A stretch of 64,000 bases of DNA from Limisphaerales bacterium. Its GTDB lineage: Bacteria; Verrucomicrobiota; Verrucomicrobiia; Limisphaerales; UBA1100. Shown here piece after piece: positions 34,232 to 62,003 of the stretch. The stretch lies in assembly GCA_014382585.1 (NCBI GenBank), contig JACNJL010000028.1:62001-126000 (forward strand). Reading direction: 5' to 3'. Position numbers and translations under genes: made by a program. The notes below the pieces were generated by a model. It saw only the letters and a list, made by a program, of their open reading frames with translations, had not been told where the DNA came from and ran no database searches. Numbering within the stretch: the first letter of the stretch is position 1; the number at the start of each line of letters is the position of its first letter.

Positions 34232-36372
34232 TTGATTGGTTTTTGTTCGGCAATCCATTTGGCAAGTAATTGAATCCATTGCGGATCGGGCCCCGTTGCG
34301 CCGACGGGTGGCATCCGGCCGAGGTCGGAGCGAATGACGCGCTGAAGCATCACCGAATGAGCGGGATCCCCCGGGGCAATGATGCGCGCTTTGTCGCCTA
34401 AACCATAGCGGTTGTGCACCGGTTCCGCGCCCAGAGTTTTGGTGGCGTCCAACGCCAGATGATGGCTGAGTAACATTTGAGCGTTGCCGCCGCCGGCGTT
34501 TACGTGACACGTCGCGCAGTTCACCTGCCAATACGCACGCACCCGCGCGGTGCGATCGGCTTTTGCATCGTACGGATTTGCGAAACGTTTTTGGACGGAC
34601 TTTCCATCCGAACCATAATTTTCAGCGCGAACTCCGCTGACCAAACCGGACTTTCCCAAAACCTGAATTTGGTTGGCCTTAAATTTGCCGTAATCGTGCT
34701 GCCGATTGAGCTGCAATTCTGTGAGACTCAACACAAATCCCGCCGCGCGTCCGTGGCACATCATGCACTCGGCGCGGCTCGGGATGCGCCACTGTTTGCC
34801 ATTAGCCAGCGCGCGGTCCGCACCTTCATTTGCCACGAGCGTGGCATCGGTTTGAGCTTTATTCCATTCATAACTGTATCCGAGCCACTCGTTTTCTTGT
34901 TTGATCAACAAACGCGTCTCGATGCGTTTCCCCTCGCGCGCAAGCGTTTGCATCAACACCGTCCCATCGGGCCCCTGCCAACCGCGATTGCCCCCGAATC
35001 GCAGTTGCCCATTGCCCGGCAGCGCAAAATGATGAGTGGCCGTCGCACCATCGGTCCAGTGCGGCACGTTGATGGAATAAGCGATCACGCCGGGTGCGGT
35101 TTCGTGTTTGGCGGTTTTGCTGAATAATCCAGTTTGGCTGAGTGCGCGCGGGAAATTGCTGCGGCGTCCCACGGCGGGATTGGGTTTGAGGCGATGGAAT
35201 CCGGAGTGATCGTCGATGACAAGCAAGTTGCCGCGCGTATCTGTGGCAAACCCGGTGATGCCAAATGAGGTGTCAGCAATTTCTGCGTGCCACGTCACTT
35301 GGGTGCCGTCGTGTTTGCCGGCCCAGATTTTCCCAGTCGAGTAATCGCCGTAGATATAAGCGCCGTTGAGCTTGGGCAAAATGTTGCCGTAATAAACGAT
35401 GCCGCCGGTAAGCGATCGGGATTCGCGATGGTGATGCTCAAAGGTCGGCTTGGTGAGTTTACCGGGGCCAAGCTTGCGCTCGAGATAAAACGGGTGGCTT
35501 CCCTCGTACAAACTCCAGCCATAATTGGCGCCGCGCTCCACGCGCTTCACACTCTCCCAGTGATCCTGCCCGTTCTCCCCAACCCAAATCGCGCCGGTGC
35601 GCTCGTCACAAGTTAATCGCCATGGATTGCGAAAACCAAGTGCCCAGGTTTCCGGCGCGGCCTTGGGCGTTTTCAAAAAAGGATTGTCCGGCGGTATGCC
35701 ATACGCGCGCTCGCCCGTCGGGCGATCCACATCGATGCGCAACAGCTTGGCCAGCAACAAGTCGATGCGCTGGCCGGTGAGGTTTTCGTCCGAATCACTG
35801 GTGCCATCACCGGTGGTCAGGTAAAGCATTCCATCCTTACCAAAAACCACACCGCCACCGTCGTGCCCGTTCGAATTCCATTTGATAATCACCTTCCGTG
35901 ATGCAGGATTAATACGATGTGTTTTGCGATCCATCGTCCAGCGCGACACGAGGCAATTCTTGGCCTTGCTCCCCTCACCACGGCGAGGACCGTTGGTGTG
36001 CAAAAACACAAACCCGTTCTGCTCGAATTTTGGGTGAAAACAAAACCCATAAATAAGCCGGTTTGTGAGCGACAAACTCTCAACTTGAATTGTCGCCTTT
36101 GGCGTGTCGCGAAATACCCACAATTTAGAAATCGAACCCTTCTCCTCACGATGATCCGCGTAGGCCAACAAATCTTGGGTGCCCGGCAAACGCTTCATTT
36201 CCAAAGGCTTTTTAACCGGCAACCCCGGCCACACTTTTTCTGTGATGTACGGCAAAGGCGGCTCCGGGGTACCGATAAGCTTACCCCCCTGCCACTCCAC
36301 GCGTGGGATTATGTTGGTTTGCCCCGATACGGCAAATTGGCAAATGAATAACAATACAAATGAAAACCGCAT
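34228..36372 (-). CDS. PQQ-dependent sugar dehydrogenase-like protein fused to cytochrome c domain
   Basis: The 714-residue protein has a Sec signal (MRFSFVLLFICQFAVSG). Residues about 60-390 form a glucose/sorbosone dehydrogenase-type six-bladed propeller (GFCFHPKFEQNGFVFLH, GHDGGGVVFGKDGMLYLTTGDGT, WALGFRNPWRLTCDERTGAIWVGENGQDHWESV). The rest (about 400-714) is a haem domain with two CxxCH motifs, CMMCHG and CATCHV, as in the SO2930-type family. Electrons from a periplasmic alcohol or sugar oxidation could thus pass to the attached haems. The neighbouring, coupled DUF1549 protein also has a haem motif. An ATG at 36396 is an alternative start; 36372 gives the better signal peptide. Confidence 0.85.
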   Translation of the reverse strand: MRFSFVLLFICQFAVSGQTNIIPRVEWQGGKLIGTPEPPLPYITEKVWPGLPVKKPLEMKRLPGTQDLLAYADHREEKGSISKLWVFRDTPKATIQVESLSLTNRLIYGFCFHPKFEQNGFVFLHTNGPRRGEGSKAKNCLVSRWTMDRKTHRINPASRKVIIKWNSNGHDGGGVVFGKDGMLYLTTGDGTSDSDENLTGQRIDLLLAKLLRIDVDRPTGERAYGIPPDNPFLKTPKAAPETWALGFRNPWRLTCDERTGAIWVGENGQDHWESVKRVERGANYGWSLYEGSHPFYLERKLGPGKLTKPTFEHHHRESRSLTGGIVYYGNILPKLNGAYIYGDYSTGKIWAGKHDGTQVTWHAEIADTSFGITGFATDTRGNLLVIDDHSGFHRLKPNPAVGRRSNFPRALSQTGLFSKTAKHETAPGVIAYSINVPHWTDGATATHHFALPGNGQLRFGGNRGWQGPDGTVLMQTLAREGKRIETRLLIKQENEWLGYSYEWNKAQTDATLVANEGADRALANGKQWRIPSRAECMMCHGRAAGFVLSLTELQLNRQHDYGKFKANQIQVLGKSGLVSGVRAENYGSDGKSVQKRFANPYDAKADRTARVRAYWQVNCATCHVNAGGGNAQMLLSHHLALDATKTLGAEPVHNRYGLGDKARIIAPGDPAHSVMLQRVIRSDLGRMPPVGATGPDPQWIQLLAKWIAEQKPIK

Positions 36373-36418
36373 AGAAGGATTCAGCCCCCGTGTCATAAAT
36401 CTGTCAAACCCGAAAATG

Positions 36419-56495: not shown

Positions 56496-59204
56496 TCACG
56501 CCAGCGCAGCTTGGGCGGCGGCAAGTTTTGCAGTTGGAACCCGGAAAGGCGAGCAACTCACGTAATTCAGGCCGAGGGTGGCGCAGAATTTTACGCTGCT
56601 GGGCTCGCCGCCGTGTTCGCCGCAGATGCCGAGCTTGATTTTCGGGCGGGTGCTGCGGCCTTTTTTAACGGCGATTTCCATGAGCTGCCCGACGCCGGTT
56701 TGATCCACCACAGCGAAGGGGTTGTTGCCGATGATGTCCTGTTCCTGATAATTCGGCAGGAATGAACCAGAATCATCACGGCTCATGCCCATCGTGGTTT
56801 GGGTGAGGTCATTGGTGCCGAAGCTGAAGAACTCGGCGACCTCGGCGATCTCATCAGCAGTCAGTGCGCCGCGCGGCACTTCGATCATCGTGCCAACGAG
56901 GTAGTTGAGTTTCACCTTCTTTTTGGCACTCACTTCTTTGGCCACGCGATGGATGATATCAGCTTGCAACTCCAGCTCTTTGCGGAAGCCAACCAGCGGC
57001 ACCATCACCTCGGGCACAACTTTGATGCCCTTCTTTTGCACGTTGGCCGCTGCTTCAAAGATTGCTTGCGCCTGCATCTCGGCCACTTCCGGATAAGAAA
57101 TCGCCAATCGACAACCGCGATGGCCGAGCATTGGGTTGAATTCGTGGAGGTCATTCACGCGCTGTTGAATTTCGGCTGGCTTCACCTTCAATTTTTTGGC
57201 GAGATCCGCGATCTGTTTTTTGTCGTGCGGCAAAAACTCATGCAGTGGCGGATCCAATAAACGAATCGTCGCCGGCAATCCGTTGAGCGCTTTGAAGATG
57301 CCCTCGAAATCTTTGCGCTGAAACGGCAGCAACTTCTTCACCGCCTTGCGCCGGTCCGCTTCGTTGTCGGCAAGAATCATTTGGCGCACAGCATCAATGC
57401 GATCGCCCTCGAAGAACATATGCTCCGTGCGGCACAAGCCAATGCCGGTAGCACCAAAGGCCACGGCGTTTTTCACCTGTCCCGGGGTGTCCGCGTTGGT
57501 GCGCACCGCCATCTTAGCCGCTTTATCGCACCAGCCCATCAATTGAGTATAATTTTTATACGTCCGCCCGCGCTTGGCTTTGGCGTTGTTTTCGAGCAAG
57601 CCTTGAATGACTTCGCTGGGCGCAGTCTTCACTTCGCCCGCGTAAATCTCGCCCGACGTGCCGTCGATGGATATGTAATCGCCTTCCTTGAATTTCAGCT
57701 TACCCACGGTGAGCGTGCGCTTGCCGTAATCCACGATCAACTCCGCCGCGCCGCAAACGCAAACTTTGCCCATTTGGCGGGCAACCAATGCCGCGTGACT
57801 ACTCACCCCACCGCGCGCGGTGAGAATGCCGTTGGCGGCGATCATGCCACGCAGATCTTCCGGCGAAGTTTCCACGCGCACGAGCATCACCGCCTGTCCC
57901 TTTGCCGCGGCGGCCTCGGCGCGGTCGGCGTTGAAATAGATCCGTCCCGTCGCTGCGCCCGGGCCAGCGGGCAAGCCTTTGGCGATGACTTTGGTTGTCT
58001 TCAACGTGGCCGCATCAAAAATCGGCGCGAGCACTTGATCCAACTGCTCAGCCGGCACACGGTTCACGGCAGTTTTCCAGTTGATGAGTTTTTCTTTCAC
58101 CATCTCACACGCGATGCGCACGGCCGCGAGGCCGGTGCGCTTGCCGTTGCGGGTTTGGAGCATGAACACTTTGCGCTCTTCGATGGTGAACTCGAAATCC
58201 TGCATATCGCGAAAATGTTTTTCCAATCGCACGCGAATGGCTTCCAATTCCTTGTGCGCGCTCGGCATCACTTTTTTGAGCTTCGCCACAGGATCGGGCG
58301 TGCGCACGCCGGCCACCACGTCTTCGCCCTGCGCGTTCATCAGGAATTCGCCGTAGAAAACTTTTTCCCCGCTGGCGGGATCGCGCGTGAAGGCCACGCC
58401 ACTGCCGGAAGTCGCGCCGGTGTTGCCGAAGACCATTGCCTGCACATTCACCGCCGTGCCCCAAGCGGCGGGGATGCTGTATTTGCGGCGGTAAACATTG
58501 GCACGATCGTTCATCCACGAATTAAACACCGCCCCGATCGAGCCATCGAGTTGCTCCCACGGATCATTCGGGAACGCTTTGCCGGTGCGTTGCTTCACCA
58601 GTTTTTTGAAAGACGCCACCAATTCCTGCAAATGTTCCGCGGTCAGCTCCGTGTCTTCCGCGTGTGCGTTGCCGAGGTGTTTCTTTTTGATTTTCTCGAT
58701 GACCAGTTCGAAGGGCTCTTCGTCTTCGCTCGGCAGTTTCTGCACGCCCATCACCACGTCGCCATACATTTGGATGAAGCGACGATAACTGTCCCACGCG
58801 AATCGCGGGTTGTTGCTAAACTTGGCGAGCGCTTCCACTGTGTCATCGTTGAGGCCGAGGTTGAGGATGGTGTCCATCATGCCGGGCATCGACTCGCGCG
58901 CGCCGGAACGGACCGAAAGCAACAGCGGATTTTTCTTGTCGCCCAGTTTTTTGCCCATCTCTTTTTCCATGCGACGCACGCCATCTTTGATTTGGGCCTG
59001 CATCTCACCCGGATAAGATTTTTTGTGCGCGTAATAGTAAGAGCACACCTCCGTGGTGAGGGTGAATCCGGGAGGCACCGGCAGGCCGATGCGCTTCATC
59101 TCAGCGAGATTCGCGCCCTTGCCGCCGAGTAGCGCCTTCATGGTTCCGTTGCCGTCGGTTTTGCTTTTACCAAAGTGGTAAACGTACTTGTTTGCTTTAG
59201 CCAT
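56496..59204 (-). CDS. ppdK: Pyruvate, phosphate dikinase
   Basis: PPDK reversibly interconverts pyruvate, ATP and phosphate with phosphoenolpyruvate, AMP and pyrophosphate, serving gluconeogenesis or pyrophosphate-linked glycolysis. The 902-residue protein has the ATP-grasp part (about 1-340; [23 protein letters not shown]), the swivelling phosphohistidine domain with H470 in [19 protein letters not shown], and the C-terminal PEP-binding barrel ([23 protein letters not shown], and C861 in [10 protein letters not shown]). The order and length are standard. It is a single gene with its own terminator. Confidence 0.97.
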
Positions 59205-59436
59205 AAAATCGTTGTGTGAAATCCAGTTAGAAAACCGGAGCGCGGAAGGTAGGGGCGGGCGCGGGCCGTGTCAACGCAATTGGCGAAAAACCAGTAGAAA
59301 ACAGGCATTAAGCCTTCATCGATTCCAATTTGATGCTAATTTGCTGCAGGCAATCTCAATGGAAGATTTTGCGCGAGATAGTGAATATAAAAAACAAACT
59401 TGCCTCTTGAGCTAATAAGCCCAAACTGGACTCCTT

Positions 59437-60375
59437 TTGAAAAAGCACATTCAAATAACATTTGTTCTGTTTTTGTTGCAGACACTTGCTGTGAGTGCCA
59501 CTCAAATTACAGAATCAACAGTAACAACAACGATCAACAAAATTGATGGTTCCATTGAATTCCACGAAGTTGGCTTTAGCTCAGAATCTGGGCCGTACGA
59601 AATACACAAACAAATCGGACTTGATGAGCATACTCTCGAATGCGGTTTCTCCGAAAAATTGGGTGTTTTTTTCAAGGACTCACCAACTGAACTTCTTTTC
59701 TCAGATGAAAATGTAGAAGACGAGCTTTCAGGCTTTGATGAGATCAACCCATTTGTAGCCAACATAAACGCTGACAACGGATTTGAATTTTATGACGATT
59801 TATTTAGGAACGGGGAAGATGTCATTCTTGAATGGCTTTCAATCAACAAAACACCATCCATGGTCATCAATTTCAAGCCAACACCTGACAACATTGCCCA
59901 ACCTAAAACAGAGCAATTGGAATTATCACTATCAAATGAACAAGGTGTTTTGGATTATAAAATAAATGTTGTCACTGGCCCGGGTGCCGATGAAGGCGAC
60001 TTTCCTGAACCAATAAAACCAACTATGGTTTTATTGGTTTACAAGGAAGTCTTTAGACTATCACTTGCTTCAATCGTACACGAAAATGGACTAGCAGTTT
60101 TTGACGATGGAATCTTCACGTTAGAGAATGATTTTGGAATGCGCAAATTACGTATTGGAAACTCTAAACAACTTGGTGCTGATCCTTTACGAGAGGGTTG
60201 GAATTACAAAATGAAAGACAACCAAAACGGCCGCGATGCAACCAATATGGTCACTATTGGGCCACGCATACAACAGTCTGAGCCGGATGATGAATGCAAC
60301 TCATTTGTCATTTCCATTTGGCACGAATTATACTTCACACATCTCGGTTGGATTTCCGGAAAGGACAACAATTAA
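59437..60375 (+). CDS. AT-rich orphan exported protein
   Basis: The 312-residue product begins with a Sec signal peptide (KKHIQITFVLFLLQTLAVSA) and has an acidic, mostly beta-type mature part (for example SIEFHEVGFSSESGPYEIHK, MVINFKPTPDNIAQ). No family is recognised. The start codon is TTG at 59437; no ATG lies near the signal peptide. Base composition and codon use (many AAA, GAA, ATT and TTT) differ clearly from neighbours, which suggests transfer from an AT-rich source or relaxed selection. It is followed immediately by a small lipoprotein gene that has the same composition, so they may function together. Six cysteines or fewer and no enzyme motif are seen. Confidence 0.65.
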   Translation: MKKHIQITFVLFLLQTLAVSATQITESTVTTTINKIDGSIEFHEVGFSSESGPYEIHKQIGLDEHTLECGFSEKLGVFFKDSPTELLFSDENVEDELSGFDEINPFVANINADNGFEFYDDLFRNGEDVILEWLSINKTPSMVINFKPTPDNIAQPKTEQLELSLSNEQGVLDYKINVVTGPGADEGDFPEPIKPTMVLLVYKEVFRLSLASIVHENGLAVFDDGIFTLENDFGMRKLRIGNSKQLGADPLREGWNYKMKDNQNGRDATNMVTIGPRIQQSEPDDECNSFVISIWHELYFTHLGWISGKDNN

Positions 60376-60786
60376 ATGAAACATTCGATTCGTCTCATAT
60401 GCGCTCTGTTTGTTTTGGCTTCGACAAATGCCTGCATTCACAACCACTATTACATCGATTCTAAATCAGCTTACGCCCAAATATATGAAAATCAAATTTC
60501 CAAATGTGACAAGTCTGTCGATGCAGTTGCCAGATTCTTTACGACTAACGAAAGCACTATCCTAAATTTTGACTTGGGAGAATTTAACCGTGAAACAGCA
60601 ACCTTGGAAGAGTGTTTTTCTAAATTGAATAAAACCTCAAGGCAAACACTTGCCACTCACATTGTCAAAAACACGTTCAGCGCCATCAACACACCGCCAA
60701 TGGTTTTACGTCACATCAGAATCAGGTTAATTGATGCGGAAATAACGGCTTTGAAAGCTGAAGGCAGATTCGTCGACCACAATTAA
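60376..60786 (+). CDS. AT-rich orphan lipoprotein
   Basis: The 136-residue product has a lipoprotein-type signal (MKHSIRLICALFVLASTNAC; candidate lipidated cysteine at residue 20) followed by IHNHYY. The remainder is probably helical (SKCDKSVDAVARFFTTNES, TATLEECFSKLNKTSRQ). No family is recognised. Its ATG directly follows the stop of the preceding gene, so the two form a bicistron. It converges on the AhbA/AhbB-like gene with a one-base gap and no visible terminator. Confidence 0.65.
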   Translation: MKHSIRLICALFVLASTNACIHNHYYIDSKSAYAQIYENQISKCDKSVDAVARFFTTNESTILNFDLGEFNRETATLEECFSKLNKTSRQTLATHIVKNTFSAINTPPMVLRHIRIRLIDAEITALKAEGRFVDHN

Positions 60787-60787
60787 T

Positions 60788-61918
60788 CTAAACCTTCATC
60801 GAATCAATCGTTATCCCGTGCCCCTCGCACCATTTCCCGTAAGCCAGAGGCGAAATCTCGGAAGGTTTGATTTCGCTGCGGCCGCCCCAGAAGACGTTGG
60901 TGTAGCCTACTTCGATGCCGGCCTCGGCGAGGTGTTGGTCGATCCCGGCTTTGTGGGCGAGCACTTTTTCTTTGTCCGTGCCGTGGGCGACGCCCATAAT
61001 ATTTACGTTCTTAAACTCCGGCCCGCCTTCGCGCCAATAACCGTGGGTCATAATATAATGCCGCCCCACTTCGCGACCGGCCTCAATCTCTTTGCCCGGC
61101 GGCACGGCCCAGTGAAAGAGCGCGTTGTAGCGCGTGACTTGTTCGCCGGTGGAAAGTTTTTTGACGTGCTCCAAAAATGTTGAGAAACGGCCAACCACAC
61201 GGCGTTCATTTAAGTCTTCCGCGACTTTGAAAAATTCCTCCAACGACACACCCGCTTCCGCGGCACGCGCAACCCACAAATCCTCCACCAATTCTTCCGA
61301 CGCAAACTCACGTTTCACAGCCTCCATAATGCGCCACTCGTGGTCGGTCAAATCCACCACCGCCACATCGTTCACCCTACCCGGCTCCTCCGAACGCGCG
61401 CCCGGCTCCATATCCTTGCGCCGCACGTGACCCACTCCGAGGGCGAAAATTTTCTTGGCCGGCATAATGCGAAACGACTTCGCGCCCACCTTCGCCTTGA
61501 GCACTTCGCAATGTTTTCGCAATGAAAACCCCTGCGGCACTTTCAGCGTCGTCCAAAGTTTGTAATTGGATCCCGCCGTAGTCGCGTCCGTGGAGCGCGT
61601 CACCACATGGCCGGAAAACGGATCCTTCTGAAACATATAATCAAACGCCGCATCGAGGTCGCCCTGCTCCACCTCCCATGCCACCAGCGCGCCTTTGGCC
61701 AGATTCGTGGCCAGTAAGGTCTGCCGAATACGCCGGATGACTCCCGCCTCCAGCATCGCCCGCACGCGCTCCAGCACCACCGACTGGGCCAAACCCGTCC
61801 GCTCCGCCACCACGCCAAATGGATCGCGCTGAAATCCCTGCAACTGATCCTCGCTCACCGCAAGAATCTTCGCATTCACTTCATCAGCAATTTCAACAGG
61901 AACAACAACAGAACTCAT
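60788..61918 (-). CDS. AhbA/AhbB-like two-domain Lrp/AsnC-fold protein (siroheme decarboxylase family)
   Basis: The 376-residue protein has two Lrp/AsnC-type modules in tandem. The first (about 8-170) has a helix-turn-helix-like part (PFGVVAERTGLAQSVVLERVRAMLEAGVIRRIR) and SNYKLWTTLKVP. The second (about 190-365) has LTDHEWRIMEAVKREF, RRVVGRFSTFLEH, and YWREGGPEFKNVNIMGVAHG. These pairs of motifs resemble the AhbA and AhbB (NirD/NirL/NirG/NirH) subunits of siroheme decarboxylase, including a histidine in the second module. Such genes are often annotated only as AsnC-type regulators. It is followed upstream by hemW on the same strand, consistent with a haem-related role. The frame is open to a GTG at 61975, but the ATG at 61918 is preferred. 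Decarboxylase activity is unproven. Confidence 0.7.
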   Translation of the reverse strand: MSSVVVPVEIADEVNAKILAVSEDQLQGFQRDPFGVVAERTGLAQSVVLERVRAMLEAGVIRRIRQTLLATNLAKGALVAWEVEQGDLDAAFDYMFQKDPFSGHVVTRSTDATTAGSNYKLWTTLKVPQGFSLRKHCEVLKAKVGAKSFRIMPAKKIFALGVGHVRRKDMEPGARSEEPGRVNDVAVVDLTDHEWRIMEAVKREFASEELVEDLWVARAAEAGVSLEEFFKVAEDLNERRVVGRFSTFLEHVKKLSTGEQVTRYNALFHWAVPPGKEIEAGREVGRHYIMTHGYWREGGPEFKNVNIMGVAHGTDKEKVLAHKAGIDQHLAEAGIEVGYTNVFWGGRSEIKPSEISPLAYGKWCEGHGITIDSMKV

Positions 61919-62003
61919 CCGCGGATTCTTGGCAGCAAACACGGACGCTGGCCAACAGATTTTTTCAAGCGCCACATTTTATCAATTACCGCACGCGACT
62001 AAA

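Follow-up and report, generated by a model that had tools for sequence, protein, structure and literature searches.

Recent insertion of two orphan genes into the 3' end of the ahb gene of a Limisphaerales bacterium

Introduction

Two abutting genes without convincing relatives, lying in a short AT-rich island next to ppdK and an ahb-like gene, raise the question of how such a pair enters a genome and what it leaves at the point of entry. We have studied this locus in a Limisphaerales bacterium (genome G000, a draft of 70 contigs), in a window of 64,000 nt (G000:C28:62001-126000), and all coordinates below are those of the window. An earlier note, made from the sequence alone, had described the island as carrying two exported genes of foreign composition and had suggested their recent acquisition as a two-protein surface module, for example in defence, competition or adhesion. 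Comparison with related genomes indicates that the orf1–orf2 segment is a real and recent insertion of two orphan genes, an event of an ordinary kind with an unusually legible scar in a core gene. The features considered are as follows.

56496..59204, minus strand: ppdK (pyruvate phosphate dikinase), flank on the far side, from gene annotation
59308..59336, minus strand: stranded native 3' end of ahb (IKLESMKA-stop), 29 nt, detached from the gene, 27/29 identical to the ahb end of the same-genus genome G004 (by eye) and contiguous with native sequence upstream of ppdK
59337..60815: inserted segment including the replacement ahb tail, about 1.48 kb, delimited by BLAST flanks against G004 and the empty site in nine relatives; right edge uncertain by about 15 nt
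59437..60375, plus strand: orf1, 312 aa from a TTG start; signal peptide read by eye (MKKHIQITFVLFLLQTLAVSA, then TQ); pI of the mature protein 4.4; no family
60376..60786, plus strand: orf2, 136 aa from an ATG start; signal peptide read by eye; Cys20 as a possible lipoprotein cysteine, in a non-canonical setting; pI of the mature protein 7.1; no family
60788..60815, minus strand: replacement 3' end of the live ahb (ITIDSMKV-stop), 19/28 nt alike to the stranded tail
60788..61975, minus strand: ahb, the target gene, open to its new end; a heme-pathway gene, siroheme-decarboxylase-like, with AsnC_trans_reg2 and an NirDL-like HTH (Pfam)

Results

Composition and location of the island

The GC content is 39.5% over 59340-60787, against a contig mean of 55.2%. 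In a profile of the whole 175-kb contig (500-bp windows, step 100; mean 0.552, SD 0.035) the island gives a minimum of 0.386, about 4.8 SD low, and values below 0.43 are observed only in windows overlapping it. The compositional shift reported earlier is thus borne out, while its placement between ppdK and ahb needs to be amended: the AT-rich stretch is indeed there, but it sits inside the 3' end of ahb, not beside this gene. The ahb gene is adjoined by a radical-SAM/HemN_C gene.

The Rfam search yielded a sub-threshold animal miRNA row only. Two promoter sites were predicted, compared to a shuffle mean of 3.1, and three terminator-like sites, compared to 1.2; as the latter are all on the minus strand, none serves orf1–orf2. 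Elsewhere in the window, a segment of about 2.09 kb (34290-36379, GC 0.559) is present in G000 and absent between adjacent positions of G005; it lies within a 795-aa frame, by eye of the glucose/sorbosone-dehydrogenase type.

The two genes

As previously described, the genes abut (TAA, then ATG), and the first one, the 312-aa frame, has a TTG start, the second, of 136 aa, starting with ATG. When the island was resampled 1000 times under a first-order Markov model, no frame as long as orf1 arose (longest 283 aa, median 92), and the GC content of orf1 by codon position (0.50/0.32/0.37) is coding-like. The values for orf2 (0.39/0.38/0.43) are much less so, and, given this weak codon-position signal, its coding status rests on the N-terminus and the coupling to orf1.

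Judging from the signal peptides read by eye, orf1 and orf2 most likely encode an exported pair; the same peptides, together with the operon layout and the patchy distribution, suggest the periplasm, the surface or the outside of the cell as the most likely site of action. The description of orf2 as a family-less lipoprotein holds in part: no family is recognisable, but the lipoprotein assignment is doubtful, as Cys20 is preceded by T-N-A (T-N-A-C, by eye), and N at –2 is disallowed by the lipobox rule. The combination of a small partner and an acidic secreted protein is compatible with an effector–immunity pair, phage exclusion or adhesion, without discriminating among them. Structure models built from single sequences (mean pLDDT 28.7 for orf1 and 44.4 for orf2) were too poor for use.

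Searches for relatives

The orf1 protein produced no row at E 10 in Pfam, PHROGs, NCBIfam, PADLOC or PDB sequences, and orf2, at most sub-threshold rows in Pfam, PHROGs, NCBIfam and PDB sequences, which were taken as noise (Ac76, E 0.039, and DUF2400, E 0.15, in Pfam; MreC, E 0.024, in NCBIfam; PrsA, E 0.71, in PDB; and those in PHROGs). By profile searches, the pair therefore belongs to no recognisable family, as had been stated. Neither protein matched any defence family of PADLOC up to E 10, nor, in the profile searches, a transposase or recombinase family, and no phage genes were recognised among the flanking genes examined. Both proteins were without a match at E 1 in tblastn searches of 50,697 phage and 72,556 plasmid records; scans of IMG/VR with both proteins and of GTDB r220 contigs with orf1 gave no confirmed match.

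Three sets of genomes, each including G000, were searched: 58 near relatives, 387 from the phylum and 320 from the order. Outside G000, none of these sets gave a convincing match to orf1 or orf2. A candidate for orf2 in G348 (27%, E 2.2e-5 for one genome, 387 having been searched) has three internal stops, with short repeats alongside, and was left unused as unproven; none of 300 orf2 shuffles reached its score among the fetched loci, which counts against dismissing it. Weak matches were also observed for orf2 in G641 (E 0.01, two internal stops) and for orf1 in G280 (32 aa, E 0.0085).

The empty site in relatives

In nine distinct genomes about 110 bp separate ahb from the ppdK that follows it, which constitutes the empty site (loci L004, L005, L006, L007, L014, L016, L017, L022 and L025, five of these being the same-genus genomes G001–G005). 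Among the six same-genus genomes with the ahb end examined, one has the insert, and all five others, with a located ahb 3' end, have the empty site; in G006, from the same genus, there was no ahb match. Other arrangements were also seen: G007 and G011 have another gene of about 200 aa between ahb and ppdK, in a stretch with GC 0.56–0.61, the ahb junction of L024 is a run of N, and G009 has a different cluster after ahb. The genes of the latter (L023 3150-9648) we take, by eye only, to resemble E2, E1/ThiF, JAB peptidase and ubiquitin-like proteins.

The ppdK–ahb junction was also examined for orthologues conserved across the group, which would have spoken against acquisition; none were found, the site being empty in nine relatives. 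Recent acquisition is well supported by this empty site, by the absence of any convincing homologue in the 320 genomes of the order (G000 apart) and by the foreign composition.

The joins and the exchanged ahb tail

In the BLAST comparison with G004, the left flank, which includes the native ahb end, extends to 59336; the right one starts again at 60789, and the two flanks share 28 bp of G004. The breaks in the native sequence on either side fall within about 15 nt of one ahb position, with hardly any native DNA missing. The displaced ahb end lies at the far edge, and the end of the target is restored: the live tail encodes GITIDSMKV-stop, in register with GIELESMKA-stop of G004. The stranded tail agrees with the genus and the live one departs from it; the pattern GI..(D/E)SMKx-stop persists in the live ahb despite the exchange. 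In 60-nt bins ahb is 83–100% identical to that of G004, the last bin alone being at 0.71.

The previous statement that neither an integrase nor a repeat marks the edges stands for the former, no recombinase being present in the insert, but not for the latter, since both edges have a diverged copy of the ahb 3' end (59309-59325 and 60789-60805). By length this repeat is unremarkable, several pairs being longer and chance-like, and 19/28 falls within the range of the reverse-complement control; it was recognised because of the alignment with relatives, and not by the repeat score, as scores of 19–20 occur in the control. The longest exact run common to both tails is CCTTCATCGA (10 nt), away from the join. 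No inverted repeat joining both edges was found; by eye, no integron core site was seen at the right edge and no homology at the left join.

The two tails differ by 9 changes in 28 nt, compared to about one expected under in-place decay (Poisson probability of order 1e-6, the rate being estimated from an assumed divergence of 7% from G004, of which half falls to the G000 branch). Six of the nine differences are at third codon positions (by eye), as if the tail had evolved within a real ahb gene elsewhere. As the live tail is too diverged for in-place decay and is ahb-like in frame, the incoming segment would have brought its own ahb tail, and we infer that an ahb-like 3' end was adjacent to orf2 in the donor DNA. 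A 25-nt match to the new tail in G012 (E 0.03) is inside a helicase-like gene (L048, named by reading) and was taken as chance.

Replacement of the neighbouring ppdK

The ppdK proteins of G000 and G004 are 97–98% identical, and their identity to those of G001, G002, G003 and G005 is 64–67%, with 83–94% for hemW and ahb. At the DNA level, G000 and G005 share 92% identity over roughly the first 100 nt of ppdK and not over the remainder. Downstream of ppdK in G005 (G005:C1; L031, L095) there is a 152-nt stub, 88% identical to the ppdK 3' end of G000 and 67% to that of G005 itself. Hence the G005 lineage had the G000-type ppdK first, which was later replaced, its tail being left. A repeat at the same distance downstream of ppdK as in G005 is observed in L035 (G002). 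The scar at ppdK of G005 appears similar to that at ahb, and a one-sided exchange is supported by this similarity.

Other ahb ends

The scan for tail copies was given 155 loci, with some genomes represented twice and G000 excluded, and located 152 ahb ends (N-bearing ends were skipped), of which 101 had more than 2 kb downstream. In G527 (L184; G527:C143:27000-29375), a second copy of 99 nt from the 3' end of ahb (93% identity, E 4e-34) is located some 600 bp further downstream; the intervening insert is AT-richer (GC 0.479 vs 0.558 downstream) and holds a 145-aa frame weakly similar to DUF2283 (E 6e-4, below the curated cut-off). The other rows of the ahb scan were six weaker ones on the plus strand (E 2e-4 to 0.009) and three on the control strand. 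The best forward scores of the tail scan overlap the reverse-complement control (up to 20/27), and 19–20 alone is uninformative. A control with 530 genes, using 3 kb downstream compared to up to 6 kb in the ahb scan, gave four rows at E 1e-6, namely tandem paralogues or repeats in L121 and L154, and ppdK of G005 and of L035/G002. These scans, too insensitive for the G000 scar itself, would neither prove nor exclude ahb as a hotspot.

L029 (G537; also L113) was considered as a second tail-replacing insert, 20/27 nt of its ahb tail recurring 202 bp downstream, but by alignment and reading this stretch corresponds to an ordinary intergenic region of L028. As for recombinases encoded elsewhere in G000, there are three matches to PF00589 (tyrosine recombinases), two of which (C17, C38) have counterparts of similar score in four of the five other same-genus genomes searched. 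The third one (G000:C23:276-683) is weaker, with a 435-aa frame and E 4e-7, and is near a contig end.

Discussion

Our first choice, which we hold with about an even chance of its being right, is that a foreign AT-rich segment of about 1.48 kb, bearing an operon of two genes for exported proteins, was taken up by one species of the genus via recombination at the ahb 3' end. The donor segment would carry orf1–orf2 and, adjoining orf2, a 3' end like that of ahb; strands would be exchanged within short ahb homology on one side, and the other end would be joined without homology, that is, by homology-facilitated illegitimate recombination. The target ahb would keep a complete reading frame through the replacement tail, because the exchange falls within the ahb-like tail homology. 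Once established, orf1 and orf2 might be co-expressed, cross the inner membrane and perhaps act outside the cytoplasm as an accessory pair, and may be likened to surface-altering cargo genes. Prophage moron genes are cargo of this kind and, like orf1–orf2, are short and AT-rich with exported products; unlike them, orf1–orf2 has no match in the 50,697 phage records at E 1 and none confirmed in IMG/VR.

Counting against one-sided recombination, no search yielded a donor, and the usable homology is short (28–40 nt). Moreover, this process usually deletes recipient DNA, and near-lossless coincident joins would suit conservative insertion better. Homology-facilitated illegitimate recombination (PMC3240628) combines homologous exchange at one end with an illegitimate join at the other; the G000 insert would share this pattern of homology at one end only, and differs in the near absence of recipient DNA loss and in a very short homologous side.

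Islands at tRNA and gene 3' ends restore the target gene, Salmonella genomic island 1 (PMC2297512) being an integrative island at a gene 3' end. A small element, or a remnant of a larger one, could likewise have used the ahb 3' end as its attachment site, with a recombinase acting in trans or lost and the tail restoring the gene, and we regard this as the main alternative, if rather unlikely. It would explain why the insertion is conservative and falls at a single position within the 3' end of a gene, with imperfect direct repeats and a restored tail, and G527, where some 600 bp are enclosed by copies of the ahb 3' end, speaks for it, but the G000 insert contains orf1 and orf2 only, without a recombinase, the longest exact core is 10 nt and not at the join, and among the 152 located ahb ends a strong tail copy is found in G527 only. 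Compared to Salmonella genomic island 1, the insert is similar in its insertion at a point in a gene end, the end being kept, and in repeats at the edges, and dissimilar in having no integrase, spanning only 1.48 kb and having repeats just 19/28 alike. On balance we place one-sided recombination somewhat ahead of an integrase. Much less probable is an insertion of the transposon type whose 28-bp target duplication has since diverged: the 28 bp of G004 matched on both sides would be expected from it, but the live copy has diverged far more than the age of the insert would allow, the edges are not linked by an inverted repeat, and neither gene matches a transposase family. An ancestral orf1–orf2 cleanly lost in relatives has nothing beyond logical possibility in its favour and is highly improbable: nine distinct genomes of the family have the site empty, the search of 320 genomes from the order yielded no convincing homologue, and each loss would require one native tail to be restored. 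An assembly or binning chimera, conceivable in a draft of 70 contigs, is hardly credible either, as collinearity with G004 and G005 extends for tens of kb on either side and the ahb frame stays in register through the join.

The locus offers a legible case of a family-less gene pair entering a genome, with the empty site, both joins and the exchanged tail all readable. It also demonstrates that a seemingly intergenic islet can sit in the coding end of a neighbour, where it is easy to miss because the ahb tail is restored. As a speculation that we consider improbable, Verrucomicrobiota might possess small cassettes of orphan exported genes, lacking an integrase, which insert at the 3' ends of protein-coding genes and supply a replacement tail that keeps the target functional, G000 and G527 then being two events at ahb. 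Should insertions like these recur, core genes would offer at their 3' ends a seldom noticed way in for orphan genes.
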